Assembly: GCA_951828585.1 (NCBI GenBank)
Contig: OX639991.1
Coordinates: forward strand, 2,884,576 to 2,948,575
Reading direction: 5' to 3'
DNA: 64,000 nucleotides
Source of the DNA: Longimicrobiales bacterium
GTDB taxonomy: Bacteria > Gemmatimonadota > Gemmatimonadetes > Longimicrobiales > Gaopeijiaceae
Of the stretch, positions 5,338 to 19,459 are shown piece by piece; positions within the stretch are counted from its first letter, which is position 1, and every line of letters starts with the position of its first letter. The position numbers were made by a program, and so were the translations under genes. The notes under the pieces were generated by a model. It made no database searches. It was not told the DNA's origin and saw only the letters and a list, made by a program, of their open reading frames with translations.

Positions 5338-7929
5338 CTAGAACCCCTGCGGCCTCGGCACGCGCGCAACGATCACGCGCACCCCGAATCCGCTCAGCAC
5401 ACGGAAGACGGCCGCGGCCCCCTCGCTCACGGCCTCGAAGTCGTACGCGCGGATCCCGCTGCCGCCGACCTGGCCCAGGAAGCTCCTGGACCCCGCCAGG
5501 TCCACCGCCGACACCGCGTCGCTGTCGTCACCGCCGACGATCGTGACCGGCCACGGATAGCGCCCCGGCGGGTCCGGGGTCGAGAAGATTTCGGTAGCGG
5601 TGGGGAAATCGTACAAGCGGAACCGCCATACCGCGTCGTCGGGGACAAGGCTCTCCGCGCCGGCGACCGTCATCGCGGTCGCGTGCGCGGCGAGCAGGTC
5701 GGCGATGCGCTCGCCAGTCACCCCGGTGATCCCGTCGATGCCGGGCGCCGTGAGCGAGTCGTTCAGCGTCGTCACGAATGCCTCGTCGGCAACCGGCGCG
5801 TCCCCGGCCGCGACCATCGCACGGTCGCGCAGAAGCCGGTGGAAGTGCCAGCCGCTGCCGTACACGTTGCCGCCTCCCAAGGGCTCGAAGGTGACCGCGT
5901 TGGGGTTCGGCGAGAATGCCCGCACGACGCGGGCCATGATCTGGAAGGTGCCGTACACCTCATCCCGGGTGTTGCGCAGCCCGTCGCGCATCATGTCGCC
6001 GGTGACGCGGGTGTTGACCGTCGGCCCGCCCGCGCGTTCCCAGGCGAGCCGCGAACTCATCTCCTTGGCGATCTCCGCCCGGCCCTCCTCGACCCATGTG
6101 GGGTTGAAGGTCCTCCCGCCGGAGGGGCGGCCCCGGATGTTGTAGTTTCGCACCCGCTTGTACAGCGAACTCACATGCGCCGCTTCGTGGACCATTCCCG
6201 CGAAGGCCCACTCGGAGTTCTGCAGCTGGAAGGCGCCCGCGCTGATGTGGATGAGCTCCATCTCGTTCGAGGACGCACACTCGGTGGTCGTGAAGACCAT
6301 GTCCCCCGACCACACGAAGGCCCGCACTCCGGTCAGCGTGGGGTCGATCAGCACGGTGATCCTGCCGTCGTTGTTCACGTCGCTCACGCCGCCGAAATAC
6401 CCCTCGATCACCTCCGCACCGTGATCCGCGTAGAAGTCGAGGATCCTGTTGGCGTTCTCAACGGAGACGGGAGAGGTCGTCCCCACCTCTTCGTACACCA
6501 CGAGGTAGTCGTTCTCGGCGATGATGTCCGCGACCACCGTTCTGGCCACGGTGCAGTTGTTGCCGGCGCCGCGCGCATAGAGGCGGAAGGTGTGGGGCGA
6601 GGCGCTCCGGGCACGGATGCCGCGCCGCGCCGCCTGCGCCTCGATCCCCCGGTCCAGCATGGCCCCCAGGCGGCCTTCGCCGGCGAGCCGGCGGAACAGC
6701 TCCATTTCCGCCTGGCGGATCCGGCCGTGGAGGGCTTCGTTGGCGGCCTGAATCTCCAGGGCCCGGGTCCAGTCCACCTCCTGCGCCGGCACCCGGTCCG
6801 CCGGACCAGGCGCGCGGTCCGCGACGACGGGGCGCAACCCGGCGGCCTCACCCGGCGATGTCCCCTCCACGACCAGCTGCACGCTGAAGAAACGCTCCGC
6901 CGCGGCGTCCTGCCCGGCGAAGGCGACCCGGTAGTAGGCCGACGCTTCGGGGGCCCGCACGAAGAGCCCACACGGTCCCAGCTGCCGGGGCTCGAAGGAG
7001 CGCGCATCGCCGACCGCCAGTCCCAGGGGGCCGTCGCACACGAACATTCCAAGGTCCGCGCCGGCCTCCTCGCCGCCCGAGTCGACGACCCGCACGGTGA
7101 ACTCGAAGTCGCCGGACTCGGCCGGGGTGCCCTGAATGATTCCGTTGGCCGACAGCTCAAGGCCCGACGGTAACGCGCCGCCATCGCCCAGACTCCAGAC
7201 GTAGCCCTCGTTGGTGCCTCCTCGTGCTTCGAGGACATAGTCGTACGCCAACGTGGCCCGGCCCCAGTCCAGGGAGTCGACCAGGATCGTCACGGGCCGC
7301 CGGACGGCGGTCACCGCGAACTCGGCCGTCATTCCGGCTGCGGTGGCGGACAGCGTCTGCACCGGGTCGGTGCCCAGCGTCCACACGGTTTCGGCAATGC
7401 CGTCGGCTCCGGTGACGTCGGAGACCTCCGATATGGCGCCTCCCCCCGAGGTCACCGCGAACGAAACGGTGATGTCCCCCGCCGGGTGCCCGTTGGCATC
7501 CAGCACCCGTGCCGCCGGCGACACCGGAAGCGGCTCCCCGAAGAAGCCCTCCTCTCCGTCGCCGCGCGCCGCCTCGATCCCGGCGGGCACCTGTTCGACA
7601 CTCGCCGACGCCTGACCGGTGGCTCCTCCCGCCCGCGCGCTGATCGTGGTGCTCCCGTTTCCCGCCGACGTGACCAGTCCCGACCCGAGTTCCACCCGGG
7701 CAACCGTCGGGTCAAGACTCGACCACTGGACTCTCGCGTTGGACATCGCGCTGCCGTGCTGGTCGAACACACGTGCCGAGAGCTGCTCGGTGTCGCCGGC
7801 GGATGCAAAGGAGACCTCCGACGGGGTCACCGTGATCGTGGTGGGGACCGGGGGGTCGACCGGGGTGTCTCCCCCCCCGCACGCAAGCAGTCCGGCGGTC
7901 AAGAGAAGGAGGTGTCGTGAAGTAGCCAT
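5338..7929 (-). CDS. Ig-repeat lipoprotein with zinc metalloprotease domain
   Basis: Predicted cell-surface protease of 863 residues. ATG 7929 opens a short lipoprotein signal (HLLLLTAGLLACGGG, lipid Cys near residue 15). Then come a BIG2-type bacterial Ig domain (ITVTPSEVSFASAGD), a second invasin-like Ig domain (FAVTSGGGAISEVSDVTGAD), and a putative-Ig segment (LPSGLELSANGIIQGTP). The C-terminal half has the zinc-binding MVHEAAHVSSLY and, about 30 residues on, WVEEGRAEIAKE, which supplies the third ligand as in gluzincins. Substrate unknown. The frame extends upstream of 7929, but that part overlaps the neighbour and lacks a signal peptide. It lies 20 bases downstream of the quinoprotein-hydrolase fusion, probably on the same transcript. 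Confidence 0.8.
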   Translation of the reverse strand: MATSRHLLLLTAGLLACGGGDTPVDPPVPTTITVTPSEVSFASAGDTEQLSARVFDQHGSAMSNARVQWSSLDPTVARVELGSGLVTSAGNGSTTISARAGGATGQASASVEQVPAGIEAARGDGEEGFFGEPLPVSPAARVLDANGHPAGDITVSFAVTSGGGAISEVSDVTGADGIAETVWTLGTDPVQTLSATAAGMTAEFAVTAVRRPVTILVDSLDWGRATLAYDYVLEARGGTNEGYVWSLGDGGALPSGLELSANGIIQGTPAESGDFEFTVRVVDSGGEEAGADLGMFVCDGPLGLAVGDARSFEPRQLGPCGLFVRAPEASAYYRVAFAGQDAAAERFFSVQLVVEGTSPGEAAGLRPVVADRAPGPADRVPAQEVDWTRALEIQAANEALHGRIRQAEMELFRRLAGEGRLGAMLDRGIEAQAARRGIRARSASPHTFRLYARGAGNNCTVARTVVADIIAENDYLVVYEEVGTTSPVSVENANRILDFYADHGAEVIEGYFGGVSDVNNDGRITVLIDPTLTGVRAFVWSGDMVFTTTECASSNEMELIHISAGAFQLQNSEWAFAGMVHEAAHVSSLYKRVRNYNIRGRPSGGRTFNPTWVEEGRAEIAKEMSSRLAWERAGGPTVNTRVTGDMMRDGLRNTRDEVYGTFQIMARVVRAFSPNPNAVTFEPLGGGNVYGSGWHFHRLLRDRAMVAAGDAPVADEAFVTTLNDSLTAPGIDGITGVTGERIADLLAAHATAMTVAGAESLVPDDAVWRFRLYDFPTATEIFSTPDPPGRYPWPVTIVGGDDSDAVSAVDLAGSRSFLGQVGGSGIRAYDFEAVSEGAAAVFRVLSGFGVRVIVARVPRPQGF

Positions 7930-17308: not shown

Positions 17309-17351
17309 GGGGCGGATTCCCGCGGGATGTGGGGTGTCGGGGCCAAACGAT

Positions 17352-17396
17352 AAGCCCCCGGAGGCTCTGGACGCTACACAGAACCTCCGGGGGCTT
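17352..17396 (-). terminator. 13-bp hairpin upstream of the quinohaemoprotein gene
   Basis: AAGCCCCCGGAGG (17352-17364) and CCTCCGGGGGCTT (17384-17396) are perfect complements around a 19-base loop. On the minus strand the hairpin lies after the 20-codon reading frame and 43 bases before the dehydrogenase start. No clean T-run follows, only ATCGTTTGG, so it may terminate weakly, act as an attenuator, or protect an RNA end. Confidence 0.6.
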
Positions 17397-17461
17397 CTGA
17401 AACCGGCCGCAACCCGGCGCGAAGACCGCTTACGGCGCGAACGATTCGATCGTGTTTCGGC

Positions 17462-17524
17462 TTAGTGGCCGAAGCGGCGATCGCTTGCCCTTGCCGGGTT
17501 GGGCTGGGTACTGGGGCTAGACAA
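17462..17524 (-). CDS. 20-residue peptide with a 12-base Shine-Dalgarno sequence
   Basis: The minus strand carries AAGGAGGTGATC at 17538-17527. This is a full 12-base complement to the usual 3' end of 16S rRNA (GATCACCTCCTT), spaced correctly before TTG 17524. The frame encodes MSSPSTQPNPARASDRRFGH and stops. A promoter lies upstream and a hairpin downstream. Part of the coding region (minus-strand CAACCCGGC, 17501-17493) can pair with GCCGGGTTG at 17418-17410. It could be a leader peptide controlling the dehydrogenase, an independent small protein, or part of a structured RNA. I know no homologue. Confidence 0.45.
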   Translation of the reverse strand: MSSPSTQPNPARASDRRFGH

Positions 17525-17635
17525 GTGATCACCTCCTTGTTCAAGGGTTTGACATCGGGCGGGACACCAGGTCCTGCGCGAAACCGGGGCTGCCACCATG
17601 GCGGCACCGGGCTTGGCTTTGTGGGCCAACCTGAA

Positions 17636-17663
17636 TGTATACTGGCGAGTGCCGGATAATCAA
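17636..17663 (-). promoter_or_regulatory. Sigma-70-like promoter for the small reading frame
   Basis: TTGATT (17663-17658) and TATACA (17641-17636) are separated by 16 bases on the minus strand, about 100 bases before the strong ribosome site. On the plus strand the same bases give TATACT (17638-17643), which could serve the divergent amidohydrolase gene. Confidence 0.5.
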
Positions 17664-17707
17664 CCTCACCGGGCCGCTCGGCCCCACTCCCCCCCGGGAG
17701 GGACTCC

Positions 17708-19459
17708 GTGAACCGACTCATGAAGCGCCTGCCGATCGGTGCCACCCTCGCCACCGCCGTTCTCGCGGGCTGCACCGGCAGCGCACCGCCGCCAGCCGAT
17801 CTCGTGCTCGTCGGCGGCCGCGTGATCACCCTCGACGCGGAGAGCCGGGTGGCCGAGGCGGTTGCGGTGCGGGGCAAGAGGGTGGTGGCGGTCGGTACGG
17901 CGGCCGAAATCGAGGCCATGGCGGGGCCCGAAACGCGCCGCGTCGATCTGGCGGGCCGCGCGGTCACCCCCGGGCTGATGGACGCGCACGTGCACTTCGC
18001 GAGCGGCGGCGCGAACCGTCTCTACAACCTCGACATGAGCTACCCGAACGTCGAGAACATCGCCGATGTGCAGGCCATGGTGGCCGAACAGGCCGGCCGC
18101 GTGGCCGGGGACGAATGGGTGCGGGGCGGCGGCTGGGACGAGGGCAAGCTGGAGGAGCTGCGCTACATCTTCGCCGCCGATCTGGACGCGGTCGACGAGG
18201 ACCGGCCCGTCTGGCTCATGCACACCATGGGACACTACGGCGTGGCCAACTCGATCGCGCTCGAGATGGCGGACATCATGGCGGACACCCCCGACCCCCC
18301 CGGCGGCACCATCGACCGGGACGCTGACGGCGCCCCCACCGGCGTCCTCAAGGAATCCGCCATGGGCCTCGTCACCCGTCTCATCCCCCGTCTCGGCCCC
18401 GGCGAGCGGCGCGAAGGCATCCGCGCGCTGGCCGACGACTTCAACGCCGAATGCATGACCGGCGCCAAGGATCCGGGGATCGTTCAGGCCACCTGGGACG
18501 CGTACGCCGACGTCCTCGCCGACGGCGACCTCACCGTGCGCGTCTTCGCGCTGTGGAGCGAGCTCGACGGCACCATCGAAGAGGTGCGCGACTACGCCGA
18601 GGGCCTCGCGGCCTTCACCCGTCCCTACGAATCCACCGGCGACGACCGCCTCATCGCGGGCGGCGTCAAGCTCTACATCGACGGCAGCGGCGGCGCCCGC
18701 ACGGCCTGGCTCTACGACGACTGGAACCGCGAATTCACCGGCACCGACACCGGCAACCGCGGCTATCCCACCATGGATCCCGACGAACTCCGCCGCCGCT
18801 TCCGCGCGTACCACGACGCCGGCCTCCACGTCAGCATCCACTCCATCGGCGACCGCGCCATCGACTGGACGGTCGAGAGCTTCCAGGAGGCCCTGGCGGC
18901 AACGCCCACCAAGGGCCTCCGCCACGGCATCATCCACTCGAACATCCCCACCGACCGCGCCCTGGACGCCATGGCCGAACTCCAGCGCGACTGGCAGGCC
19001 GGCTACCCGGAGCCCTCCCCGACCTTCACCTGGTGGATCGGCGACACCTACGCCGGCAACTTCGGCCCCGAGCGCACCCTGCGCCTCAACCCGTTCCGCT
19101 CGTACCGGGAGCGCGGCATGATCTGGGCGAGCGGCTCGGACTTCTACGTGACTCCCTATCCGGCGCGGTACGGCGTGTGGGCCTCGGTCGCGCGCCGGCC
19201 GTTGCTGGGAGTCTACGGGGACGAGCCCTACGGCACCGCTCAGTCGGTGGATGTAGAGACCGCGCTGCGCTCATTCACCGTGTGGGCGGCCCACCAGATG
19301 TTTCTGGAGGACAGGGTGGGGACGATCGAGCCCGGCAAGTACGCAGATCTGGCCGTCTGGGACCGCGACCCGCTCACCGTGCCGACCGACGACCTGCGCG
19401 ACTTGGCCTGCGAGATGACGGTCTTCAACGGCGAGGTGGTGTTCGAGCGGGAGGGGTAG
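17708..19459 (+). CDS. Amidohydrolase family 3 lipoprotein (YtcJ-like)
   Basis: A predicted metal-dependent hydrolase of 583 residues, exported as a lipoprotein (ATLATAVLAGCTGS, lipid Cys near residue 22). It opens with the small beta-sandwich (LVLVGGRVITLDAESRVAEA), followed by the metal-binding strand PGLMDAHVHFASGG and LYIDGSGGARTAWLYDD. The insert typical of amidohydrolase_3 proteins carries HVSIHSIGDRAIDWTVESFQ. The end, LASGSD-like WASGSDFYVTPYP and GKYADLAVWDRDPLTVP, completes the barrel and returns to the sandwich. The family acts on formamides, hydantoins and N-acyl amino acids; the substrate here is not predictable. A single gene, convergent with its right neighbour. Confidence 0.88.
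   Translation: MNRLMKRLPIGATLATAVLAGCTGSAPPPADLVLVGGRVITLDAESRVAEAVAVRGKRVVAVGTAAEIEAMAGPETRRVDLAGRAVTPGLMDAHVHFASGGANRLYNLDMSYPNVENIADVQAMVAEQAGRVAGDEWVRGGGWDEGKLEELRYIFAADLDAVDEDRPVWLMHTMGHYGVANSIALEMADIMADTPDPPGGTIDRDADGAPTGVLKESAMGLVTRLIPRLGPGERREGIRALADDFNAECMTGAKDPGIVQATWDAYADVLADGDLTVRVFALWSELDGTIEEVRDYAEGLAAFTRPYESTGDDRLIAGGVKLYIDGSGGARTAWLYDDWNREFTGTDTGNRGYPTMDPDELRRRFRAYHDAGLHVSIHSIGDRAIDWTVESFQEALAATPTKGLRHGIIHSNIPTDRALDAMAELQRDWQAGYPEPSPTFTWWIGDTYAGNFGPERTLRLNPFRSYRERGMIWASGSDFYVTPYPARYGVWASVARRPLLGVYGDEPYGTAQSVDVETALRSFTVWAAHQMFLEDRVGTIEPGKYADLAVWDRDPLTVPTDDLRDLACEMTVFNGEVVFEREG

Follow-up and report, generated by a model that had tools for sequence, protein, structure and literature searches.

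Short reading frames occur in several kinds of structured or regulatory bacterial RNA. In attenuators, a tiny frame able to pair with a downstream segment is followed by a terminator, an anatomy that recurs in the element described here. In tmRNA, a short internal frame lies within a structured RNA, and its GCA-led codons are superficially similar to those of the element. The peptide SgrT is a product that has a role in its own right. As far as the accessible parts of the reports describe them, dual-function small RNAs (VcdRP/VcdP, PMC8672173; SgrS/SgrT, PMC4021124) are free-standing small RNA genes with a short reading frame, trans-acting attenuator leader peptides are represented by peTrpL/rnTrpL of Sinorhizobium (PMC7298713), and type I toxin mRNAs with metastable folds are small mRNAs in which translation is controlled by folding (PMC6733600). 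Measured against these partial accounts, the nearest kinds are the dual-function small RNAs and the trans-acting attenuator leaders; the element is partly like both and lacks one defining property of each, namely a selected peptide in the case of the former and a regulated downstream gene in the case of the latter.

The element lies in a 64,000-nt stretch of a Longimicrobiales genome (GCA_951828585.1, contig OX639991.1; hereafter the window), where it is flanked by a cytochrome c/PQQ-propeller (quinohaemoprotein) gene on the minus strand and an amidohydrolase gene on the plus strand. The original prediction had listed a promoter, a Shine-Dalgarno (SD) sequence, a TTG frame, a 9-base pairing and a hairpin, and all of them are present in the sequence as described, all on the minus strand (Table 1). 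The two promoter hexamers are separated by 16 nt (promoter span 17663-17636), and the 13-bp hairpin ends 43 bases before the ATG (17308) of the quinohaemoprotein gene, which would give an RNA of about 285 nt from promoter to terminator. By inspection, the conserved segment upstream of the SD could pair with GGGC inside the frame. The hairpin is an almost perfect inverted repeat and could terminate transcription on either strand.

Table 1 Features of the element (window coordinates)
Feature	Position	Strand	Basis
-35-like hexamer TTGATT	17658..17663	minus	Sequence; TTG retained in most genus alignment rows
-10-like hexamer TATACA	17636..17641	minus	Sequence; TATACATT nearly invariant across genus rows
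Conserved 5′ segment CGCCCGATGT upstream of the SD	17552..17561	minus	Order alignment
12-nt SD AAGGAGGTGATC, complement of the 16S tail	17527..17538	minus	Complementarity across unique elements
Start-codon region CTTGTC, able to pair with GGCAAG at 17489-17484 (codons 12-14)	17520..17525	minus	Complementarity kept, nearly invariant
20-codon TTG reading frame including TAA, peptide MSSPSTQPNPARASDRRFGH	17462..17524	minus	Frame, length and stop kept in relatives
Helix P1, 5′ arm CAACCCGGC (codons 8-11)	17493..17501	minus	Covariation
Proposed helix P2, 5′ arm GCGATCGCC	17476..17484	minus	Pairing in order alignment, no double changes; imperfect in the window genome
Proposed hairpin P3, stop codon in loop	17456..17473	minus	Sequence inspection
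Proposed helix P2, 3′ arm GGTCTTCGC	17419..17427	minus	Pairing in order alignment; 2 mismatches in the window genome (inspection)
Helix P1, 3′ arm GCCGGGTTG, within the 3′ untranslated region	17410..17418	minus	Covariation
Terminator-like hairpin, 13 bp	17352..17396	minus	Strongest covarying helix

Searches against Rfam 15 gave no match above the gathering cut-off for the window and 15 related loci, and lax Rfam searches returned only matches below the cut-off, on which basis a known RNA family was ruled out. A tmRNA was rejected as well: Rfam had no match at the element, the true tmRNA (tag ANSDLALAA) is encoded elsewhere in this genome, and the element, in contrast to tmRNA, has an SD and a start codon and ends in a terminator, with no tRNA-like end seen. 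Compared with type I toxin mRNAs, its peptide is hydrophilic and non-conserved, and it is present as a single copy in most genomes of the order. We also considered a fragment of the 16S tail read on the plus strand, as GATCACCTCCTT equals the 16S end; this was discarded, since it is on the minus strand that frame, promoter and terminator are jointly conserved.

Positions 17330-17710 of the window were searched with BLAST and matched in 52 of 59 genomes, the window's own counted (22/22 other genomes of the genus, 9/12 of the family and 20/24 of the order). A covariance model (R1) built from eight order-level sequences had matches in the order (126 of 146 genomes), the class (142 of 246) and the phylum (144 of 298), and a broader model (R2) matched 214 of 394 class genomes; as few first-look candidates were scored per genome, misses are expected in these searches, and for the 20/146 order and 180/394 class genomes with no R1 or R2 match losses and misses are indistinguishable. 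The element was single-copy in most genomes in these RNA-model searches. A pattern scan of named genomes returned at least 114 stretches, and among the 80 titles listed nearly all were Gemmatimonadota. One was labelled "uncultured bacterium" (L158), and three carried labels outside the phylum (L155 and L206, Gammaproteobacteria; L159, Euryarchaeota); these three are probably mislabelled MAGs, as their elements are typical of Gemmatimonadota. A false positive (L194) proved to be the ribosomal protein L27 gene of a Bipolaricaulota. Contigs often end near the element (L034, L036, L053, and L045 and L046, two contigs of one genome), perhaps where short-read assembly was broken by the strong terminator hairpin or by a local duplication. 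For the comparisons below, L194, a spurious second BLAST match without the motif in one genome (L056) and the window duplicates L001, L002 and L057 were dropped, and loci L066-L106, mostly repeats of genomes already included, were left out with the loss of a few new genomes. Identical element sequences were collapsed, taking 206 loci to 156 representatives and 149 unique elements.

The 149 unique elements had been picked without regard to phase or stop. Their start codons are TTG (129), GTG (17) and ATG (3), 144 carry the GGCA anchor in phase, and in 144 the frame reaches its first stop at codon 18-23, whereas the other two frames have a stop there in 7.4% and 1.3% of elements. The stop codon is TAA in 59, TGA in 49 and TAG in 40 elements; the exceptions are one element whose frame stays open through the 200 nt read and L043, in which the frame breaks early, at codon 14. 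Within the main length class (112 elements), internal stops at codons 2-19 occurred in 3, 53 and 91 elements in frames 0, +1 and +2, respectively. TAA, TAG and TGA each occur frequently as the stop triplet; TGG, expected there about 10 times under independent positions, was found in 0 of 93 cases. These comparisons of relatives establish that the start position, phase, length and stop of the 20-21-codon frame are selected and that the amino acids are not.

The latter point was assessed from codon changes in 60 nearest-neighbour pairs, in which 37 of 171 changed codons were synonymous, against 27-31% expected by region. The synonymous fraction was 0.31 for codons 2-7, 0.12 for codons 8-11, 0.17 for codons 12-16 and 0.14 for codons 17-20 (expected 0.27-0.31), and third codon positions were slightly freer in codons 2-7 only, being no freer than first and second positions elsewhere. 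Amino-acid constraint beyond that imposed by the RNA is thus not visible in these small counts, and it could be masked where RNA structure fixes codons 8-16. The C-terminal residues vary by family (IGA, FGN, LIDAR, LEAA), which speaks against an arrest peptide. No match was obtained in Pfam for the window peptide or in NCBIfam for three peptides, queries of 20 amino acids being at the sensitivity limit of both.

The strongest competitor of the reading we prefer is a true micropeptide gene, in which the 20-21-amino-acid peptide would act in trans and the RNA structure would merely tune translation or stability. It would account for the conservation of frame, start, stop and SD spacing and for the motif [RW]A[SN][DG]R, which occupies codons 12-16 in most elements. 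Against it stand the synonymous fractions, which are not raised, the third positions, which outside codons 2-7 have no extra freedom, and the differing C-termini, and the conserved residues fall on nucleotides that also suit RNA pairing. We regard such a gene as possible but doubtful. Of the "highly translated micropeptide" suggested by the original prediction, the conserved frame therefore stands, while the peptide shows no constraint at the level of amino acids.

The RNA fold was examined with alignments made without reference to structure. When 145 elements (effective number 111) were aligned with MAFFT, the best 16 covarying column pairs comprised nine in the terminator and seven in P1; the terminator and the helix between frame and 3′ region noticed in the original prediction are thus the only helices among these pairs. 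A second such alignment of 21 order-level sequences showed P1, P2 and the start-codon pairing jointly paired in 91.2% of cells, compared with 34-46% when slid. Double changes were found in 7 of the 12 pairs of P1. By contrast with P1, P2 (95.2% of cells paired) and the start-codon pairing (92.4% paired, nearly invariant) had none, and these two, together with P3, which was drawn by inspection, are proposals without covariation support, for which reason the switch discussed below is confined to P1. In seven loci of other families (L032, L036, L044, L047, L049-L051) the last codons, TCGGCGCC, could form either part of the hairpin around the stop codon or a pairing with a GGTGCCGA-like stretch further downstream; this alternative, also without covariation support, may be a second switch, one that the window's family lacks.

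The predicted fold of the window RNA has an energy of -132.5 kcal/mol (z -4.55), and that of the plus strand is even more favourable (z -5.67), as expected of a stretch rich in inverted repeats; folding energy alone is therefore no evidence of strand. Across 138 elements, the predicted mean probability that the P1 arm pairs with the 3′ region was 0.60, falling to 0.09 after shuffling of the 3′ region. Predicted accessibility of the start was only partly reduced and varied among families. We also modelled a ribosome at the stop codon as a means of opening P1, which did not occur, P1 remaining intact (0.62); opening is therefore proposed for elongating ribosomes only. P1 occupies frame positions 24-32, which, given the usual footprint sizes, an initiating ribosome would not yet reach and a terminating one would already have cleared, so that only elongation must melt it.

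A strong fold (the z of -4.55 above) in a free-standing RNA with its own promoter and terminator, present once in most genomes, would also suit a trans-acting small RNA that works by base pairing, with the frame being secondary. The frame is conserved far above chance, which such an RNA would not explain, and the 3′ arm covaries with the frame instead of staying constant like a seed for fixed targets; we consider this explanation improbable.

At least 12 contiguous nucleotides complementary to the 16S tail were present in 126 of the 149 unique elements, a count that is inflated, as many loci were fetched by a pattern demanding this SD, although loci found by BLAST and by the models carry the same motif. 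A search of 31 genomes located the 16S tail GGCTGGATCACCTCCTT in 18, one copy in each; in the window's own genome neither the tail nor a 16S gene was found. The predicted SD/16S duplex has -19.7 kcal/mol, compared with -8.7 for GGAGG alone, and the spacing from GGAGG to the start is 7 in 138 and 6 in 11 unique elements. The prediction that so extended an anti-16S match would be odd by chance agrees with the finding of only three copies of AAGGAGGTGATC in the 4.47-Mb genome; the other two lie in stretches that, by eye, read like coding sequence. Extended SDs occur on ordinary genes too: the L27 gene of the Bipolaricaulota stretch carries the same AAAGGAGGTGATC SD (L194, about 6825-6896).

Both the strength of this duplex and the long complementarity would be expected of a decoy RNA that holds 30S subunits, in which a 12-15-nt complement of the 16S tail, together with a helix just in front of the initiating ribosome, would serve to trap or count the free small subunits, and the mini-frame would release them. 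Conservation of the SD extension GATC may, however, be structural, since GATC also has a possible pairing partner inside the frame, the same SD is found on other genes such as that of L27, and the pattern used to choose many of the loci required it; such a decoy is quite unlikely in our estimation.

The position of the element relative to its neighbours was compared at the 156 representative loci, with orientation called by a simple GC-frame gene caller. The next downstream gene is on the same strand at 82 loci and on the opposite strand at 63, and none was called in the stretch at 11. Within the genus, five members (L015, L018, L020, L022 and L023) have a convergent amidohydrolase downstream in place of the quinohaemoprotein gene, and five neighbours checked in other groups encode an M50B-like peptidase, a redoxin, a DUF1707 protein, DapF and a Kdo transferase. 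The -35/-10 pair is retained in most genus alignment rows, and a hairpin followed by a T-rich tail was found in 81% of 148 elements compared with 7% of shuffles. A promoter scan of the elements gave modest enrichment (mean score 7.09 vs. 5.96 in shuffled sequences; at least 9 of 12 in 6.9% vs. 0.9%). A generic scanner found neither promoter nor terminator in this stretch, because both sites are below its consensus. Given the mixed downstream strands, the unrelated neighbours, the kept promoter and the hairpin with its T-rich tail, the element is a gene and not a leader; judged by sequence comparison, it is a free-standing gene for a structured RNA conserved across Gemmatimonadota.

Attenuation of the quinohaemoprotein gene, the other role put forward at the outset, would fit the short distance to that gene here and the presence of its homologue downstream in part of the genus, yet it is hardly credible and is refuted as a general role by gene order, the same element preceding unrelated genes or facing opposite-strand ones, and by the terminator columns, which among the 16 best pairs covary only internally, with no sign of mutually exclusive terminator and antiterminator helices. 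Support was obtained for the independent gene that had been offered instead, one that has a promoter and terminator of its own, a strong SD and a mini-frame; relatives retain the SD, the frame, the helix and the hairpin.

The best reading of the element, to which we give about even chances, is a structured small RNA with a fold gated by translation of a fixed-length mini-frame, the gene being kept for the act of translation and not for its product. According to this proposal, the 30S subunit would dock on the RNA through 12-13 bp with the 16S tail, the extended SD competing with local pairing for docking, and P1 would lie just past the end of the initiating ribosome. An elongating ribosome would have to melt P1, and termination after a fixed 20-21 codons would let it re-form, so that the RNA would alternate between a translated state with P1 open and an untranslated state with P1 closed and the start region partly sequestered. 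The RNA would act in trans as a translation-gated small RNA, and the likeliest outputs would be an effect on its own stability or processing, or the unmasking of either the 3′ arm or the SD. A more ambitious version, which we put forward tentatively and hold to be rather unlikely, is a small RNA with a housekeeping role throughout the phylum Gemmatimonadota that would measure translation itself: it would act in trans, and its fold would depend on whether a ribosome is passing through a mini-frame of fixed length and free sequence, docked to the full 16S tail.

Set beside the nearest described kinds, the element resembles the dual-function small RNAs in what appear from sequence to be its own promoter and terminator and in a short frame selected for translation, and differs from them in that synonymous change is not in excess and in that the frame is retained with drifting amino acids and forms an arm of the RNA fold. 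In contrast to peTrpL/rnTrpL, it has in general no regulated downstream gene (82 same-strand, 63 opposite-strand and 11 uncalled neighbours), no repeated regulatory codons were seen, and covariation does not place its terminator in an alternative fold. No report of such an element in Gemmatimonadota was found in the open-access literature. The RNA is kept in most genomes of the order and in many of the phylum, with its frame, its SD and the helix between frame and 3′ untranslated region selected and its peptide drifting, and it is directly testable in a cultured Gemmatimonadota strain. If the proposed reading is true, it would be a clear-cut example of translation used as a signal and not as a means of making protein.
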